From Planctomycetota bacterium (GTDB taxonomy: Bacteria > Planctomycetota > Phycisphaerae > Sedimentisphaerales > Anaerohalosphaeraceae), in assembly GCA_013349435.1 (NCBI GenBank), contig DUZQ01000004.1:1-64000 (forward strand): a DNA stretch of 64,000 nt. Direction: 5' to 3'. Within the stretch, counting starts at the first letter, position 1, and every line of letters starts with the position of its first letter. The position numbers and the translations under genes were made by a program. A model generated the notes under the pieces. It saw nothing but the letters and a program-made list of their open reading frames with translations. It was not told the DNA's origin and did not search any database. Shown one piece after another: positions 54,116 to 64,000 of this stretch.

Positions 54116-55948
54116 TCAGGATAGTTTTTTGACTTTATTGAGGGCCGAGACGGTAAAAATGAAAGGGTAGAGCTTTTCGAAGTACCAGAGCCTTGCAAAA
54201 TACAGGCCGATGGGGGCCGGATGCATATTGTTTCCCTTGTCGGTTTTATCCGCCAGTGAAGCTGCACCGCGCAAAAGGACGCGTTCTATAGTTCCTTTCA
54301 GCGACTCATAATTATCGGGAAATGAAAAAACAGATACACCTGCAAGTGCATCGAGAGCAACAGCGCTTTCTTCTATGGATGATTTGACGGCTTTTGCCGG
54401 TCCCCAGCCGCCGTCATGATTCTGTACGGACAATAGCCACCCCACTGCTTTTGCAATCGGCAGGGCGCAGCAGTTAAGATACGACTGAGGGGTCTTCTGC
54501 AGAGCTGTAAGGACGCGGCTTGTTCCGTAAACCGGATTCGCATGGTGTGGTGCGGACTCGTTGCCGAACCATAACGGAACCCATGAACCGTCATCGGCCT
54601 GGACGTTTACCAGGTATTTTATGCCTTTTACGATTGAGGTGCTTATTCGGCGGCTTAGGGCTTTTGTTAGCTTATCCTGCCAAAGGGCCATAGCAGAAAC
54701 GGCATGCGAGGTCAAATCGGGCGAGCTTCTGTCGAACGGCAGCTTCAGCCGGCCCCTGCAGAAGGTCGGGAAACCTCCATCGCGATTCTGCTGGCCCAGG
54801 AGCCACTTGACTCCGGCTGCTGCTGCCTTTATTACGCGCTCGTCAATCAGGTTGAGGTTGGCAAGAGCAATTAAAGCAGCCGCCGTATCATCGGCATCGG
54901 GCACGCCCCCGGACAGGTGTGTCCACGCCCAGCCGCCCGGCGGGGTGTGAGTGTAAGGGTGAACGCGGGTGTATTGTTGCAAGAGGAGCTGGTCCTGAAT
55001 CATTTTCCGCTCAGGCAGCGGAAGGATATTTTCAAAGTCGCTTCCGGCTGCAAGGGCATTTACCGACAGGGTGGTCAGCCATGTTGCAAGATTTGTATCT
55101 ATCGGCCAACTGCCGTCATCCCTGACAGAGTTGCGCAGAAACTCAATACCTTTTGAGACAACGGGGCTGTCATCTCGGCCGGCTGCGGCAAGGCTCATAA
55201 CCACAAAAGCCGTCAGCGGAACCGCTTCAAGAAAGCCGCCACCTGCAGGTTGGATGTTTTCCAATACCGCAAGGGTCTTTGCCCTTGTTGCGTGTCGCAG
55301 GAGTCTTAAGAGCGGATTTGCGGGTCGGTTTTTATGGTAGTTGACCTGTCCGATTGCTATCAGGGCCGGCAGGGCATAGCTCACCACCGGAAGACGCAGC
55401 CATTTGAATAACTGATGAGGACATGCCGCCAGTTCAAAAGGTAATGGCTTGATATTTGACCAGGCACCGGTCCCGACACCTAATCTGCCGGCAAGGGCAC
55501 ACATAGTCAGAATAGGCACAGAAAAAGTCCTGTCATTTCCGTATTGTTGATTAATTGCGCTTATCAGAAAGTGGGGCTTCAGTGAGTTCGTTTGACGTAC
55601 AATCCAGGATTCTGCCCTGGCGACGACATCCCGCCGGTCAAGCGAATCTTTCTGTGCCGTAAACGCAGCCCAGCAAAGCATCGTTGCAGGCAGATTACTG
55701 CGGCTTAAGATGCTGTCGCCCCATCCTCCATCCGGATTTTGATTTTTGCCGAGCCAATCCAGGCCTGAGTGGATAAGGAATTTATGTTTTTTCTCATCGG
55801 CGATAAACAGAGCAAAGACGGCTGTAGCCGTAGCAAGCGCACTGCCCGACAGGTATCCGGGCCAGTACCCTTCCGGCAGCCGGGCGGCAATGAGGCTCTT
55901 TTTTGCAGCCGAGAGTGTCTGCTCGATGCTTTCAGTTTCAATGTGCAT
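54116..55948 (-). CDS. Squalene-hopene cyclase-like class II terpene cyclase
   Basis: Last gene of the isoprenoid operon. The 610 residues have the double alpha-barrel pattern of squalene-hopene and sporulenol cyclases. The protonating DxDD motif is intact (PDADDTAAALIAL, D351-D354). QW-type repeats are visible at QNPDGGWG (70-77), QNRDGGF (387-393), QADDGSW (450-456) and QNHDGGWG (509-516), and the C-terminus GLYFARLWYFEKLYPFIF is the family's usual ending. It should cyclise a linear polyprenoid by protonation. Whether squalene is the substrate is unknown: no squalene synthase is visible here. It starts two bases after the preceding gene. Confidence 0.88.
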   Translation of the reverse strand: MHIETESIEQTLSAAKKSLIAARLPEGYWPGYLSGSALATATAVFALFIADEKKHKFLIHSGLDWLGKNQNPDGGWGDSILSRSNLPATMLCWAAFTAQKDSLDRRDVVARAESWIVRQTNSLKPHFLISAINQQYGNDRTFSVPILTMCALAGRLGVGTGAWSNIKPLPFELAACPHQLFKWLRLPVVSYALPALIAIGQVNYHKNRPANPLLRLLRHATRAKTLAVLENIQPAGGGFLEAVPLTAFVVMSLAAAGRDDSPVVSKGIEFLRNSVRDDGSWPIDTNLATWLTTLSVNALAAGSDFENILPLPERKMIQDQLLLQQYTRVHPYTHTPPGGWAWTHLSGGVPDADDTAAALIALANLNLIDERVIKAAAAGVKWLLGQQNRDGGFPTFCRGRLKLPFDRSSPDLTSHAVSAMALWQDKLTKALSRRISTSIVKGIKYLVNVQADDGSWVPLWFGNESAPHHANPVYGTSRVLTALQKTPQSYLNCCALPIAKAVGWLLSVQNHDGGWGPAKAVKSSIEESAVALDALAGVSVFSFPDNYESLKGTIERVLLRGAASLADKTDKGNNMHPAPIGLYFARLWYFEKLYPFIFTVSALNKVKKLS

Positions 55949-55950
55949 AG

Positions 55951-56781
55951 CTATTGACTCAAATGGCCCATTGCAAGCAGTGCATAATAAGTGTACTCGC
56001 AGTCGGTTGTTTTTTCAGCGGAACTTGCACAAAATCCGCCCTGAGGGTCCCAAAGGTCGTCAATAAAGTCAAGACATTGCTCTTTTATTTCGAGCAGCGG
56101 CGCCCCTGCTTCAAAGAGTGCATGGATTGCGGTCGCGGTGGAAAGAAGGTCGGGCGGGCCGACCTCGGGCATCACGCAGAAGCCGCCTTTGGGGCTGACG
56201 CAGGAAAACAACCGGTCGATGGCTTGTTCGGGGACCGGTTCGTTCAGATGATGAAGTATTGTTACCGCTGCCGCGGTGCTGGGTGTTGCGGCGACTTTGA
56301 TGTCGGCCTGATTGGCGTATCCGCCATCGGCGGTACGTAAGGAGGCGATACTATCCAAAAAGATTTTTTTGTCGTAAGTCTCAACGGATAAATCCTGATA
56401 GGCACACAGCGCAAGGAAACATTTATAAATCGTGGGGTTTTGTTCGAGAAGGTTTGCGATACGGCGGGCGATATTGCTGTGAATGCCGGGTCGTGCCGGG
56501 TATGAAATATCCGCCCAACAGCGAACAAGACAGGCCAGGTGAACCAGGTCGAGTGATTGGCCCTGCCCGAACTTTGCCAGATAGCCTGTGATTTTGTCCT
56601 TGGGAATCTCTTCTTCCAGTGCCAAAAGGGACTCTATGCCAAAAACGGTGTAATACAAATCGCTCCTGCCGGCCCTGTCCTGGAATCCGCCCTCTTCATT
56701 AAGCTTATCTTTAATGAAATCGACCACGGGCACAACTCGGTCTTTAAGTAATATTTCAGCCCGACCCGCCGCCTTCAGCAT
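55951..56781 (-). CDS. Small prenyltransferase/cyclase-fold (alpha/alpha barrel) protein
   Basis: Fourth gene of the isoprenoid operon; 276 residues from ATG 56781, which has AAGG upstream, or 282 from ATG 56799. Repeats of the prenyltransferase/squalene-oxidase type recur: EEGGFQDRAGRSDLYYTVFGI, LRTADGGYANQ, SPKGGFCVMPEVGPPDLLSTA and DPQGGFCASSAEKTTDCEYTYY. It is a single barrel, like protein prenyltransferase beta subunits, without DxDD. It might bind or cyclise a prenyl chain or help the larger cyclase. It begins inside the preceding gene. Confidence 0.8.
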   Translation of the reverse strand: MLKAAGRAEILLKDRVVPVVDFIKDKLNEEGGFQDRAGRSDLYYTVFGIESLLALEEEIPKDKITGYLAKFGQGQSLDLVHLACLVRCWADISYPARPGIHSNIARRIANLLEQNPTIYKCFLALCAYQDLSVETYDKKIFLDSIASLRTADGGYANQADIKVAATPSTAAAVTILHHLNEPVPEQAIDRLFSCVSPKGGFCVMPEVGPPDLLSTATAIHALFEAGAPLLEIKEQCLDFIDDLWDPQGGFCASSAEKTTDCEYTYYALLAMGHLSQ

Positions 56782-58444
56782 CCGTCGCCTTATACTCATT
56801 GCAACAACCCATCACATCAATATCGCTGAATATTTTACTGATTATCCTTCGCAGAAGGCCTTTCAATGTCGCATTTTGCACAGCCCCGAGAGAGCTTACA
56901 GCCCGCAGCCTGTAGGACTCCATAAGCCCAAGGGCGATGCTTTTGGCTCGCGTTTGGGCAAGTATATTGAGGACTTTATTGAAATCTTTAACTTCGCCGG
57001 CCGATTGCCTCCAGACGAATTCGAGCAATTTTTTGTCGTCTGGGGCGGCTCTTTCAAAAGCAATTGCCAAAAGCACCGACGGCCTGTTTTGGCACAGGTC
57101 GCCGCCGGCGGGTTTTGCATCAAGGTCGTTGACATCATCCATAATCTGATAGGCAATACCGAGCGAGCGGCTGTACTCGGTGAGCGTTTGAGCCAATTGT
57201 TCGTCCCGACCGGCTAAAATTGCACCCAGCCTTAGTGCGACCTCAAAGGCGGGACTTGTCTTATCTTCGAATATATCGATAACCTCAGCGACCCTTAAGG
57301 GCCTGGGCTCGCGCATCCAGAACAGCTCTTTGCCTTGTCCGAGACACAATTGTTTGTGCCCTGCTGAGGCAACCTGCAGCATTTTGGCTCCGCAATCGGT
57401 GGAAGCTTCGGCAAGCAGATGGTATCCCTGCCCGACAAGATAGTCGCCGATATTTATCGCGACAGGAACTCCGTACTCGGCATGGAGGGTCTTTTGGCCG
57501 TAACGCATAATATCGGCGTCTTCAATGTCATCGTGAACAAGAGAAGCTTTGTGAAAACATTCGACTGCCACCGCGACCTTAATCAACTCCTGCGAAAAGG
57601 CCGGCTCGGTGGCTTTTGCCAGAGCCTGGTACGCCGCGACCGCCAGGAAAGGCCGCCACCTTTTCCCCGACCGACCGAGCCACTCGACTGCCGTTTTCGC
57701 GGTCGGGTCCCCGCCCGGCTGCAAAAGCGATATGAGGCGTTCGGTGGTAAAAAGGTCCCGGACTTTTTTTCTCAGGCTATTAAGGTCAATGCGACCGCTA
57801 CGGTCGTCTCCGGTTTCATAGATGGCATCAAGAACCCAGTCAACATCCACACTTGTGTTTTCACAACCATCATACAGAAGCGGTATCGCAATACCCGGGA
57901 CCGCGCCGGCTTCCATATATGGAAAAGTTTTTTCCAGCACATCCAGACAGCTTACGCCGACGATTGCTTCAATCCTACCGGTTTCGATAAGGCTCATCAC
58001 GACAGGCGAGCCCTCGGCAATAAGAACGGCATATCCCAATTGTTCGGCCTGGGCCTGCAATTCGCTCAGGATGCATCTTCCACATCGCCGGCAAACAAGA
58101 CCGACCTCATCAAAATCGGCCGGACAATTGTCCTTGTCCCGCAGGCATTTCGGCAGCAAAAGTAAACGTCTGTTATAAGGTATGCCCGCTACGGTCTGGC
58201 GCCATATCTCATTGTTGAGCAGAACGACTAAAAACTTCAGATGCACATCCTTCAGGCCGTAGGTTTTGATTATCCGGCCGCAGTGTCTGTGCAACTCATC
58301 AAGAGAGACCGGCCCGACAAGACTTGTTTTTACGGCATATTCACGGACAATCCCCAGCACCCTGTTCCTCTGCTGTTTCGTAGAGGGTATATCGGCCTGA
58401 GGCTCTCTGACCGGTCTTATCGAAGCTATAATGTCCCTTCGCAT
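56756..58444 (-). CDS. DUF116-polyprenyl diphosphate synthase fusion
   Basis: A 562-residue two-domain protein. Residues about 30-215 are DUF116-like with clustered cysteines (C100, C107, C118, C121, C124; [12 protein letters not shown]) that could bind a metal or Fe-S cluster. Residues about 240-540 are a trans-isoprenyl diphosphate synthase: GKRWRP (260-265), first Asp-rich motif DDIED (305-309) and second DDVND (436-440). The residue five before the first motif is Ala300, small, as in medium- or long-chain synthases, so a chain longer than C15 is likely. It overlaps the radical SAM gene by 19 bases and the next gene by 26-44. Confidence 0.88.
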
Positions 58445-59997
58445 ACTCGAATCTCTTTAAGGCTGGAATTTTTTTCAATCTGCCTGCCGACCTTCCTGAA
58501 GGTCCTGCGCCATGAAGTTATTTCGCACCTCCCCAGCACCTGCATCAGCGCCCTTTTAATCGGGGACACTCCACCGGCCCGCTGATTGTCGAGAAATAAT
58601 CGCGGCACCCGCCTGAAGTTTATCTCGTAACAGGTTCTGTAAAGCCGCAGATGGTCCTGTCTCATTTTAGCAAGCGTAAATTTTTGCCCCGCCTGTATCT
58701 GTTCGGCTGATAAAGGCTCATAGAAAACGGGGAAAATAGCCGCACGTTGGGTCCCAAGATATTCAACGAGCCTTTGAGTACGGGCGATGTCATCAGGTAT
58801 TTCACCCGGCAGGCCGAGCACTATACTGAAAACGGAAAAGAAGCCGTTTCGGCTCATCTTTTGGGCTGCCTGTCGAACCATGTCGTCCCAGTCATCGGGC
58901 CGAAACGGTGCTACCTTGCCCGGGCAGTTTGCGGCGACGAGATTACCGTTTGCGCTTTCTGCACCCATATTGACCCAAAGGTAATCCGTTTTGGCGCTCC
59001 ATGTAAGCAGTCTTCTGATTTCGGATAATTGTTCATCGGTCAACTGCAGTACGCTGGTGATATTGGCGTGGTCTGTCTGCATAAAAGACAAACCTTTTAT
59101 TCTCCGCATCTTCTGCAGCAAATCGCATAACTTTTCAAAGTCTGGCTTTAGTCCGACTGCACCATAGCGAAAGAAATCCTCGCTGCTGCTGACAACCGAG
59201 GTAATTCCGTTGGCAACGTTTGTTTCGATGTCGGCCAGGATGACCTCCGGACGAAGATGGGCCATTTTTTTTTGGGCCATACTACAGAAACCACAACCTC
59301 TGCCGCAGCCCCTTGAAAGCTCGACAATACCCAACATCGACGCCCCTTTTACAGGCCTGATATTCTCAGCGGAACTATTCTGGTCCGAGATATATCCATC
59401 TACCTGCTTTTCTTCGATAAGGTCGGTGAACAAGTCCGGTCCGCGGTTTTCAAAATAACCATCGAACACTACGTCAATGCACCGTGATGAAGTATCGTCA
59501 TCGTACCTGTCCCACTGCCAGGCCCCGGCCCCGCCGCCGACGACCTTGAACTTGTATTTGTTTTTCGCCTGGCTGATATATTCGAGCATTTGCCTCGTCC
59601 AGTAGCTCGTATATAACTCGCCTTTCCAGAAATTCCTCGTCGTGGTATTGCTCATCGCCGTGCCTAAGGGGTCGCTCGAACTGAAACCGACAACTTTAAC
59701 CCACGGCCCCAACAGACCCGGCAGAGCCTGGGGTGTTGTGCAGACCACGTCATTAGCGGTAAGGCCGGTTAAGTCAAGAAGGGCCGACTCAACCCGCCGA
59801 AGGCCGAGTGGCGCCTGTTTCGCCCTGCCGAATTTATCCGCAGGGACGGCCGGGCAGATAAAAGAACGCATCACAAATTCAGGCACCTGCGTGGTCTGCA
59901 TCGTGGCAAATATGCCTTCGAACAAAACCTTATACGAGGCGCTAAGGGTCCTGTCGGCAACAAGTATCACGGCAGGTCTTGATTTTTTTTCTTTCAC
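58426..59997 (-). CDS. Radical SAM enzyme of the isoprenoid operon
   Basis: About 523 residues. Residues about 10-170 look like a Rossmann-type domain similar to the cobalamin-binding part of many radical SAM enzymes ([32 protein letters not shown]), though the DxHxxG motif is not seen. [17 protein letters not shown] carries the CxxxCxxC cluster, and [10 protein letters not shown] and [15 protein letters not shown] lie in the barrel. The GTG at 59997 follows GGGAGGA and overlaps the previous stop (GTGA), giving tight coupling; TTG 60024 is an alternative. The substrate is probably the lipid made by the operon. Confidence 0.85.
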
Positions 59998-60884
59998 CGC
60001 CGTTCCTCCCTCTTGCACCGGCAATCACATTGGTTTGGTATGGAATCGGGGCGCCCCTGCGATTCTTTGAGCGGGTTGTCCGAATTTTCTTGTGCGCCGG
60101 TTAATGAGTCTATGACTTCCTGCGGGATATCCAGCTCGTTTTGCAGTTTCGAAAAACGAGAAACTTCATGCCCGCTTCCTTTCTTCTGTGAAAAGCTTTG
60201 AATTTTTCCACGCCCCCTGAGCACATCATGAATATCGGCTCCCAGAAGTTCGCTAAGCCTGGTGCCGGTGTCGGTTCGATGCCCGGCATCGGGACCGATT
60301 CGGTCTCCGTTGAACGGGCTTTCGGTATATTTTGGAAAGATAATGGCTTTTTGCGGACACACGCGGGCACATGCGGGACAATTTGTCTTGCAATTAGCGG
60401 GCTTTTGGACCTGTACCTGTCCCTGTTCCGAAAGGCCAAAAACTCCGAAAAGACAGAAATTCAGACACTGTTTGCAGTTTGCACATCGGTCATAGTCAAT
60501 TACGGGAAACCAGGGTATCCATTCTGAGGTCTTGTCGAGCCGGAGCTTTTGATGGCTTTTTTGAGACTTTTCATATTTTGACAGCGATTCAAGGATATCT
60601 TCTACACTGTCGGTTTTCATATTAAAAAACTCTACACCTTGTGCCGGTAACGGTGCACCTGCGGCATGAAAGAGCCATTTGACCGCTCGCTCAAAACATG
60701 CGATTATTTTCAGATTTTCCATTCCGGCCCAGCGTCGAAGTACCGGGTCCCGGCGGGCCGACAGCTCGCACAGGTCCGGCACCGCCTCAAATTCGACACC
60801 TGAGTCCGTAAGTTGCTCGCGCAGGTTTGCCTTTACCCCATCGGGGATGACCTGGGAGTATGCGCAGTTGCAGTAAAGAATCAA
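59994..60884 (-). CDS. 4Fe-4S ferredoxin-like protein
   Basis: First gene of the isoprenoid operon, 296 residues. An N-terminal alpha/beta domain (about 1-90) begins [15 protein letters not shown] and could hold a Cys-ligated site. Two 4Fe-4S motifs follow: [19 protein letters not shown] (CxxCxxCxxxC) and [17 protein letters not shown]. The C-terminal 100 residues are polar and end in a Cys/Arg cluster ([12 protein letters not shown]). It may donate electrons to the radical SAM enzyme encoded next. It starts 39 bases after the propeller gene upstream, so both may share a transcript. Confidence 0.82.
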
Positions 60885-60923: not shown

Positions 60924-63900
60924 TTATCCTTTGACATTATAGGCCAACAACGTTTCTCCATGACGAATATAGAGTCTGCCGTCGCAAATTACCGGATGCG
61001 CCCAGTGTTCATCCGTCCCTTTTGTTACCGTAAAAGAACTAACGATATCAAAGCCCTCAGGTGAGGCCCTGACAAGAGCAACGGTGCCTTTGTCTTCTTC
61101 GTAACAGTATAACATCCCATCGGCGTATGCGATTGACCCTTTGGAACCGAGCCACCTGGTTTCATACATTACTTTTCCGGTATTCCAGTCAAGACATACC
61201 CAGTCGCCGTATCTGTTGGTTTTCCAGTTTGAGCCGTAAATGTAGCCGTCCACAAGAACCACCCCTCCGTGATGGGTGTCAAGGGTTGTGTCCACCCATT
61301 TTCTGGTTACCTTTGTACCATCGGCGGAAAGAGCAAGCATCGCACCACCGTCATCGTATCCGCTGGTGGTATATACGGCTCCGTCATAATAAAGGGGTGT
61401 GATGGGATTGTTGGGTCTGGCTTCCTGCTGGTAGTCTTCGTATTTATCCTTCCAGAGAACCTCTCCCGTGCCGGCGTCGATACCTGCAACGGAATCGGCT
61501 AACATGGTAACAACAATTTCCCTTGAGCCTCTTTTGACCAGTATCGGCGAGCAGAAAGCACTTGCCTCGGTGAGATTTTCGGTAACCCAAACGGTCTGTC
61601 CGGTTTTTTTGTCAAGGGCGACTATTGAAGCCTTTTCTCCGCCCGGAGTGCAGATGAGTTTATCACCGACGACCAGCAGCGATTCGGCATAGCCCCAACG
61701 TGGTACTTTTCCACTGTACTTTTCTTGCAGGTCCTCTTTCCACTTTACATCGCCGGTCCTGGCATCAAGGCAAGCCGCCGTACCCGTCCCGGTCATTATA
61801 TAGATACTGTCTTCATCGACCGCAGGCGTGCTTCTTGCGCCTGAGTGGGATTTTGTCCACTCCGGTCCGTAGGGCTTTTGCCATTTAATATTTCCTTTCA
61901 TATCAATGGCTGTAAGAACGCCATCTTTACCTTTTCTTCCGGTAATGTATATAAGCCCGTTTGCAACAGATACTGTAGAGAAACCTTCACCGAGATTATC
62001 AACAGACCATAAAAGTTCGGGGCCACCCTCCAGCCAGCTTTTCAAAAGACCGGTCTCGGTGCTTTTACCATCCCTGTAGGGGCCCCGCCACTGCGCCCAG
62101 TTTCCAGGATTGCCCCCGAGGGTAGTTGATGATTCCGGGCTCACATCAAGACAGATAAGCCTGCCTGTGCTGTTGCTGCGGGCATAAATCCTGCCGTTTG
62201 CCAGCACAGGCACGGTCCAGCATCTGCCCGAGAGGATCTGGGCCGATGTAATCTCTTCAAATTCTTTGGGCGAGGCCTCGGCAATTATAAGTTTTCCCTG
62301 TTGTGTTAAGATAATCAACTTGCCGTCCGAAGCCAAAACGCTTGAGCCGTATTCAGCGATTCCTTTTTGTTTCCAGGCTACGCGGCCCGTCTCAAAATCA
62401 AGACACACCAAACCGCCTTTATCAATGCCGTAAATATATCCGTCTAAAAGCACTGAGCTATTCATATGGCTTTGCAGCTTCCTGTTACTCCAGAGCTTTT
62501 CCAGCCTGCCGTCCTCAATCTCAAAGACCCCGCAGCCCCTGTTATATCCGGAGGAGATAAACACCTTATTGCCCGAAATAATTGGGTCGGCTGCATTTAT
62601 ATCATACAATGTTTCCCATGGCGTGCTCCACAATTGCTTTCCGGTAGCAGCATCCAATCCTGCAAGCTCTCTGCAGACGAACATCGCAATACACTTTCTC
62701 TCACCTATATTAAAAGGAACCGCCGAAGCATATCCCGAAGGACCTATTCCGTTTTGCCATATCAGGCTGCCGTTATTCTTATCCAAAGCGATACCGTAAC
62801 TACCTGCATTGTAAATAACCATGTTGTCGATTATCACCGGTGAACTTGACAGACCCCAGGAAGAAGTCTTAATCCCAAGCTCCTGACGCAAATCCTTCTT
62901 CCAGATAACTTCACCGTCGGCGGCATTAAAACAAAATGCCTTTCCTCTTTTGCTAAGGGTATAAACCCTGTCGCCATCGACGGTAGGAGTGGCGCTTGGG
63001 CCTCCCTGATAATCCTGCCCCTCCAGAAGAGCGGGGTATTTATATGTCCAGATCTTTGCGCCGGTTTGGGCATCCAGACAATAGACAATGTCATAGCGCC
63101 CTTTTGCCAATGCTTCAGCGTCATAATCTCGGCCTCTGTCGTCAAAACCTTCATCTCCATCCTCTTGTTCCTCTTGCTGTTCATCATCATCTTCCTGTTC
63201 CTCTTGTTCTTCCTTTTCATCCCCATCCTTTTTCTCTTCGATCGTCTCACGCCCGCTGGTATTACCCATTGTGTAGAGCCGTCCATTGCTGACGGTCATC
63301 GAGGAAAATCCCGTTTCAATTACTGTTTCCCAAAGTGGCTTTACGCCTTCAAAGATTTTACCGGCCACCCAGCCGGTCTCTGTGGATATACCGTCATAAT
63401 TCGGCCCGCGCCAGTTGGGCCAGTCATTTGTAGCGGTAATTGCTGAGGTTTCAGCCTGTAGCTTTGTGCTCTTGGCTACATCAACACAAACCATATCACC
63501 TGCGGCGTTTCGGGCATAGATTCTGCCGTTTGCCAACACCGGAGTTGTCCAGCACTTGCCTTTGAGTATTTGGGCGGATGCAATCTCTTTCAAAGCTGTC
63601 GGCGAGGCCTGGGCGATAACCAGCTTGCCCTTCTCGCTTAGGATAATCAGTTTGCCGTCCGCAGCTATTAAGCTGCCCTTCCCATAATCCTTCGTAGCCC
63701 ATTTTACTTCGCCGGTATTAAAATCCAGACACTTTAGCCGGGCCATATCAAACCCGTAAAAATATCCATCAATCAGTATCGAACTGTTAAAATGGTTTTT
63801 CATATTTTCATTACGCCAGACCTCCCTGACCCTGTCACCTTCAACTTTTAGCAATGCACATCCAGCCAATGACGAAATATATACCTTGTCATCCATAAAT

Positions 63901-64000
63901 ATCGGGTCGGCGACATTCTCATCGGCATGGCTCCGCCATGTATATTTCCAGAGTTTGTCTCCGTTATTGATGTTAACCCCATACAACGCCTTTTGGCCGA
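60924..64000 (-). CDS. PQQ-like beta-propeller repeat protein, 5'-truncated by the window edge
   Basis: At least 1020 residues; the frame is open to the window edge, so the N-terminus is missing. Three related modules follow each other: the end of one (to about residue 188), a full one from WPNWRGPNYDGISTETG (189) and another from WAQWRGPYRDGKSTETG (630). Each has PQQ-like blades such as LDAQTGAKIWTYKYP and LDKNNGSLIWQNG. Residues about 249-290 are an acidic Glu/Asp/Gln insert inside a loop. Such proteins are exported in planctomycetes and probably bind other proteins; no quinoprotein catalytic residues can be assigned. Confidence 0.88.
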   Translation of the reverse strand, partial: GQKALYGVNINNGDKLWKYTWRSHADENVADPIFMDDKVYISSLAGCALLKVEGDRVREVWRNENMKNHFNSSILIDGYFYGFDMARLKCLDFNTGEVKWATKDYGKGSLIAADGKLIILSEKGKLVIAQASPTALKEIASAQILKGKCWTTPVLANGRIYARNAAGDMVCVDVAKSTKLQAETSAITATNDWPNWRGPNYDGISTETGWVAGKIFEGVKPLWETVIETGFSSMTVSNGRLYTMGNTSGRETIEEKKDGDEKEEQEEQEDDDEQQEEQEDGDEGFDDRGRDYDAEALAKGRYDIVYCLDAQTGAKIWTYKYPALLEGQDYQGGPSATPTVDGDRVYTLSKRGKAFCFNAADGEVIWKKDLRQELGIKTSSWGLSSSPVIIDNMVIYNAGSYGIALDKNNGSLIWQNGIGPSGYASAVPFNIGERKCIAMFVCRELAGLDAATGKQLWSTPWETLYDINAADPIISGNKVFISSGYNRGCGVFEIEDGRLEKLWSNRKLQSHMNSSVLLDGYIYGIDKGGLVCLDFETGRVAWKQKGIAEYGSSVLASDGKLIILTQQGKLIIAEASPKEFEEITSAQILSGRCWTVPVLANGRIYARSNSTGRLICLDVSPESSTTLGGNPGNWAQWRGPYRDGKSTETGLLKSWLEGGPELLWSVDNLGEGFSTVSVANGLIYITGRKGKDGVLTAIDMKGNIKWQKPYGPEWTKSHSGARSTPAVDEDSIYIMTGTGTAACLDARTGDVKWKEDLQEKYSGKVPRWGYAESLLVVGDKLICTPGGEKASIVALDKKTGQTVWVTENLTEASAFCSPILVKRGSREIVVTMLADSVAGIDAGTGEVLWKDKYEDYQQEARPNNPITPLYYDGAVYTTSGYDDGGAMLALSADGTKVTRKWVDTTLDTHHGGVVLVDGYIYGSNWKTNRYGDWVCLDWNTGKVMYETRWLGSKGSIAYADGMLYCYEEDKGTVALVRASPEGFDIVSSFTVTKGTDEHWAHPVICDGRLYIRHGETLLAYNVKG

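Follow-up and report, generated by a model that had tools for sequence, protein, structure and literature searches.

What does a DUF116 domain do when it is joined to an enzyme of isoprenoid synthesis? This question is raised by a locus in 64,000 nucleotides of DNA from a Planctomycetota bacterium (contig DUZQ01000004.1 of assembly GCA_013349435.1, positions 1 to 64,000), a stretch that we call the window. One minus-strand gene of the window, at 56756..58444, had been annotated from its letters as a fusion of DUF116 and a polyprenyl diphosphate synthase. Here, we examined the fusion protein, the genes that surround it and the occurrence of both in other genomes.

DUF116 and a polyprenyl diphosphate synthase in one chain

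The gene encodes a protein of 562 aa, which begins with ATG and is read in a single frame, and both of its domains lie above the Pfam cut-offs, in agreement with the initial annotation. DUF116 (PF01976) occupies residues 58-207 (57824..58273, minus strand), with an E value of 6.8e-36, 123.5 bits against a cut-off of 25 and a match to positions 6-154 of the 155 in the profile. The annotation had given it residues 30-215; the placement of the domain is thus upheld, while the range found by Pfam is slightly narrower. The trans-polyprenyl diphosphate synthase domain (PF00348, polyprenyl_synt) occupies residues 256-494 (56963..57679, minus strand; E 6.2e-50, 170.2 bits, cut-off 27). An AlphaFold model of the whole protein (mean pLDDT 86) consists of a helical lead-in at residues 23-87, an alpha/beta Rossmann-like DUF116 core at 93-208 and a complete, all-helical prenyl synthase. 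A fold search with the whole model matched only the synthase part, to GGPP and polyprenyl synthases, and in VIA-align the synthase half was superposed on GGPP synthase 6kd7 with a Z of 33.4 and an rmsd of 2.4 over 312 residues.

We conclude that the fusion is real; it is no artefact of assembly, nor is this the first time that it is seen. A join made by faulty assembly or by a frameshift is ruled out by the presence of the same join in 69 of the 294 Planctomycetota genomes sampled, within one contig in several of them, and in other phyla. A scan of named genomes found it in Verrucomicrobiota, Lentisphaerota, Kiritimatiellota, Candidatus Zipacnadia and Bacteroidota, taxon assignments which rest on the genome names, and names of MAGs can be wrong; the carriers among Bacteroidota include Draconibacterium aestuarii as well as Tannerella- and Prolixibacteraceae-like bins. 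In a tree of 63 fusions, two sides are well supported: most members of one are Planctomycetia-like, and the other is composed of Phycisphaerae, Verrucomicrobia, Lentisphaerae and Bacteroidota. A first report is ruled out as well, since Makarova et al. (2015) state in one sentence that Psta_0175 of Pirellula staleyi is a fusion of DUF116/arCOG02078 and polyprenyl synthetase (PMC5898192). The initial annotation took DUF116 to be normally stand-alone; as a novelty, the fusion is not supported, since the join was noted in 2015 and is common in Planctomycetota.

The synthase is complete and has both Asp-rich motifs, as had been annotated. The first, DDIED, is found at residues 305-309 (57518..57532, minus strand), with D305, D306 and D309 invariant in the family; the second, DDVND, is found at residues 436-440 (57125..57139, minus strand), with D437 invariant and D436 replaced by Asn in one large Planctomycetia-like clade. 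The RRG motif of the IPP site, a membership feature of PF00348 synthases, is lacking. Tyr315 (57500..57502, minus strand) takes the place of its second Arg, so that the window protein reads RYG, and R-Y-[G/D/N/E] is found in 96 of the 97 fusion family members readable at this site; the non-fused relatives that were fetched have RRG, RHG, RHN, RRN or RRR there. Since RRG is usual but not universal, some ordinary synthases varying too (RHG), membership of the synthase family rests on the other features. In characterised synthases this second Arg helps to bind IPP, and Tyr315 may alter chain elongation in the fusion.

The length of the product had been predicted from Ala300 (57545-57547, minus strand), five residues before D305, as longer than farnesyl, and this hint gained weight. 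Position -5 is Ala in 97 of 98 family members, the other being unreadable; it is also Ala in the octaprenyl-diphosphate synthase 4jxn, whereas the GGPP synthases 1wy0 and 5jfq have Tyr or Phe. A product longer than C20 is thus plausible for the fused synthase. An upper limit to the chain may be set by Phe297, at position -8, which is present in 92 of 98 members. Two further polyprenyl synthases (PF00348) are encoded in this genome; a housekeeping role for the fused enzyme is for this reason disfavoured, and it is probably not the one that serves general metabolism.

The operon and its class II terpene cyclase

Most of the functional information is carried by the operon, which the initial annotation left out. 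Five minus-strand genes between 54116 and 60884 overlap or nearly touch, in the order ferredoxin protein, radical SAM protein, DUF116-synthase fusion, single-toroid protein and class II cyclase. The ferredoxin protein (59994..60884, minus strand) combines an N-terminal domain of ~120 aa with a 2[4Fe-4S] ferredoxin domain; 58 of the 63 relatives aligned have all eight ferredoxin-type Cys, and in other genomes the protein is often encoded by two adjacent ORFs. The radical SAM gene (58426..60024, minus strand) shares 19 bp with the fusion gene. Its product matches Pfam Radical_SAM with 41.9 bits, weakly resembles TIGR04013 (B12-type radical SAM) and has the CxxxCxxC motif at C240/C244/C247, all three Cys being invariant in 10 relatives. 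Across 96 fusion loci, 47 have a SPASM-like radical SAM protein and 9 the type found in the window, never both together; the mutual exclusion of two types at the same place in the operon suggests that their function is interchangeable. The toroid gene (55951..56799, minus strand) overlaps the fusion gene by 44 bp, and its position beside the fusion is conserved. It encodes a single alpha-alpha toroid of the Prenyltrans family (PF00432, 51.9 bits), whose similarity in the PDB to Rab GGTase beta is weak; with regard to a role as a Zn-dependent protein prenyltransferase, no conserved set of Asp, Cys and His stands out in it.

The same gene set surrounds the fusion in Planctomycetota, Verrucomicrobiota, Lentisphaerota and Bacteroidota. 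A cyclase was found in 72 of the 96 fusion loci, many of which end at contig ends, a ferredoxin in 58, a radical SAM protein in 56 and the toroid protein in 55; in the Planctomycetia-like clade the cyclase precedes the fusion instead of following it. Other genes are met at these loci too. Genes for a GcvH-like protein (lipoyl-carrier type) and a CobW-like GTPase are frequent extra neighbours in other Planctomycetota and Verrucomicrobiota and often head the operon there, e.g., at L065:10859-12466; they are not among the genes read beside the window operon. Also on the minus strand, a large PQQ-repeat-like ORF (60924-63986) stops 40 bp short of the ferredoxin gene; in about 11 other loci, too, the fusion has similar PQQ-like genes in its vicinity.

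The last gene (54116..55948, minus strand) encodes a class II terpene cyclase of the squalene-hopene cyclase (SHC) superfamily (Pfam SQHop_cyclase_C, 133.9 bits), the only SQHop cyclase in this genome. In the alignment with SHC 1gsz, its DADD at residues 351-354 (54887..54898, minus strand) stands against DVDD as the DXDD proton-donor motif, and His415 (54704-54706, minus strand) occupies the position of the conserved SHC His; both the motif and the His are present in 71/71 members of the cyclase family. Fusion and cyclase tend to occur together: 63 of the 294 Planctomycetota genomes have both, 6 the fusion alone, 3 the cyclase alone and 222 neither. Since these counts include related genomes and the test ignores relatedness, the Fisher p of 4e-53 is to be read only as a strong association. 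As for the three cyclase-only genomes, the match begins at a contig end in two, and in the third (G098) a DUF116 match begins after the cyclase.

Planctomycete clusters of polyprenyl synthetase and terpene cyclase have been placed in hopanoid or carotenoid pathways in genome papers (PMC8303584). The corresponding explanation of the present locus would be that the cyclase is an SHC variant acting on squalene made elsewhere, that the synthase makes farnesyl diphosphate or a longer chain for general use and that its place in the operon does no more than assist supply. Apart from the published assignments, this would fit the superfamily of the cyclase and the presence of squalene/phytoene synthase (PF00494) homologues in 50 of the 63 genomes with fusion and cyclase. 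We nevertheless consider it unlikely. The cyclase reaches only 110.9 bits with the SHC model TIGR01507, far under the equivalog cut-off of 431.1, and the genome already has its two other polyprenyl synthases. Moreover, a search for PF00494 gave no match in this genome (92% complete), nor in 12 others of the 63; some of these 13 genomes are incomplete, but not all, G057 and G200 being 99% complete each. PF00494 is also absent from the isolate genome that holds the Draconibacterium aestuarii locus. The known routes to squalene pass through the PF00494 family. Because of these 13 carriers we infer that the cyclase probably takes the linear prenyl diphosphate of the fused synthase rather than squalene; where PF00494 is absent, this is its likeliest substrate.

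The cysteines of DUF116

The Cys cluster C100-C124, to which the initial annotation had drawn attention, is borne out. It comprises C100, C107, C118, C121 and C124, in a loop after the first strand of the DUF116 core (C100/C107/C118-x2-C121-x2-C124; 58073..58147, minus strand), and two additional residues, C166 (57947-57949, minus strand) and C194 (57863-57865, minus strand), complete a set of seven. None of the seven Cys, which include CxxCxxC, varies among 31 DUF116 sequences, both fused and stand-alone, and in a separate alignment each was kept in 42-44 of 45 fusions. From this conservation, DUF116 probably holds an Fe-S cluster. The domain modelled alone reached a mean pLDDT of 92. Foldseek gave no match to this model below E 0.001, and the best match with VIA was a designed 2x2 Rossmann protein (Z 9.1, rmsd 2.4, 94 residues). 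Thus, the fold matches in the PDB are of the generic Rossmann 2x2 type only, in line with Makarova et al., who propose a flavodoxin-like fold and, for DUF116 in general, electron transfer (PMC5898192).

One explanation of the join, raised by the initial annotation, is that DUF116 senses redox state for the synthase, as a switch by which oxidised Cys or an Fe-S cluster would turn chain synthesis on or off. The covalent fusion and the seven invariant Cys would suit such a switch. The pattern of Cys loss points elsewhere. The set is intact in 73/73 fusions beside a cyclase, while six fusions that have lost part or all of it (L100, L101, L121, L181, L182 and L184) have no adjoining cyclase and keep the synthase motifs wherever the contig covers them; L163, cut at a contig end before DUF116, was left out of the count. 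The correlation between Cys loss and the absence of a neighbouring cyclase (Fisher p 1.4e-4, uncorrected for relatedness) may stem from three or four independent events. In addition, the genomes G028 and G087, whose only fusion is Cys-broken, have no gene of this cyclase family at all. Since Cys-broken fusions lack the cyclase and retain their motifs, the Cys set seems to be maintained with the cyclase pathway and not with the synthase as such, which argues against the switch, an explanation that we regard as very improbable, and for an Fe-S role together with the ferredoxin and the radical SAM protein.

Stand-alone forms of DUF116 have other surroundings. In the several loci inspected, the adjacent genes are fmt, rsmB or LytB-UbiA, and the neighbourhood of fmt and rsmB suggests that the short form has another role, in housekeeping. 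In the Brocadiae-like loci L105 and L116 the domain adjoins fmt, and in L105 also rsmB. The initial annotation had proposed a survey for the two domains as separate neighbours; these loci yielded no synthase directly adjacent to a stand-alone DUF116, and one synthase about 4 kb away on the other strand in L116 was taken as chance. DUF116 is linked to isoprenoid enzymes a second time, and independently, at L115:554-3086 (G039:C35). There, 47 bp separate a gene in which IspH (LytB) is fused to a UbiA-like prenyltransferase from that of a stand-alone DUF116, which has a hydrophobic stretch at its N-terminus.

DUF116 could also be catalytic itself, e.g., as an Fe-S reductase acting on an allylic diphosphate or a double bond of the prenyl substrate, for which IspH, which reduces HMBPP, would be the model. 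The fusion to a prenyl synthase, the proximity to the IspH-UbiA gene and the ferredoxin in the same operon are consistent with this. On the other side, the fold of DUF116 matches no known reductase, although a missing match is weak evidence, and elsewhere the domain is found without a prenyl link, with fmt and rsmB or, in archaea, with genes for sulfite reductase or ATPase (PMC5898192). Altogether, we think a catalytic DUF116 improbable.

A proposed pathway and its known relatives

We propose that the five genes form a dedicated terpenoid operon which does not use squalene and in which the fusion, at the core, makes the precursor, a reading of the sequences towards which the balance tips slightly. 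Starting from the domains, motifs, operon, co-occurrence and lack of squalene synthase in some carriers, all seen in the sequences themselves, the route would run as follows. The product of the synthase domain would be an all-trans prenyl diphosphate with a chain that probably exceeds C20. The class II cyclase would protonate the far end of this linear chain via the DXDD acid and close the rings. Electrons for the radical SAM enzyme, which would modify the chain or the cyclised product, would come from the 2[4Fe-4S] ferredoxin and from the Cys-rich DUF116 domain, which probably serves as an Fe-S electron carrier. Finally, the tethering of DUF116 to the synthase would allow substrate and redox chemistry to meet in one complex. 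It weighs against this proposal that squalene could be used in the 50 of 63 carriers that have squalene/phytoene synthase homologues, and that elongation itself may be altered by Tyr315.

More tentatively, and as a possibility rather than an expectation, many bacteria of the PVC group and Bacteroidota may make a squalene-independent polycyclic isoprenoid lipid from a long prenyl diphosphate, by a dedicated class II cyclase and radical SAM/Fe-S tailoring, with DUF116 as an Fe-S module. If true, the producers of such a lipid would include lineages of gut and rumen from which hopanoid-like lipids are not known. DUF116, an orphan family with seven invariant Cys, gains its first strong functional context, and the locus points to an undescribed cyclic-terpenoid pathway where the lack of squalene synthase would predict no such lipid; the current sorting of these clusters as hopanoid or carotenoid may be wrong. 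Draconibacterium aestuarii, a cultured carrier without squalene synthase, makes the pathway directly testable by lipid analysis. A literature search for the operon, with subscription journals mostly outside its reach, returned nothing specific. Thus, while the fusion was already known, its operon context and its squalene-independent distribution appear to be undescribed in the literature searched.

Psta_0175 is like the window protein in having the two domains in a single chain and a planctomycete host; its published account is without the operon, the link to a cyclase, the spread to Bacteroidota and the pattern of Cys loss (PMC5898192). As for the stand-alone DUF116 of anammox bacteria and archaea, the bacterial forms that were aligned share the seven invariant Cys of the fusion; the gene lies between fmt and rsmB in an anammox-like genome and near redox genes in archaea. 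With the synthases 4jxn and 1wy0 the window synthase shares the fold, the first Asp-rich motif and the Lys-Thr and Gln-x3-D motifs, and with 4jxn also the Ala at -5; its family differs from both in the fused DUF116, an HKASL signature, RY in place of RR and, in one clade, NDxxD as the second motif. The cyclase has SHC-type domains, DXDD and the conserved Asp and His behind it in common with SHC (TIGR01507; 1gsz), but falls far below the model cut-off, occurs without squalene synthase and is linked to a prenyl synthase. A parallel in the way of working is the HepPP/SqhC sesquarterpene pathway of Bacillus, where an SHC-family class II cyclase is fed by a long prenyl diphosphate, as the proposed operon route would have it; in Bacillus the first step belongs to a separate class I-like enzyme, and DUF116, radical SAM protein and ferredoxin have no part.
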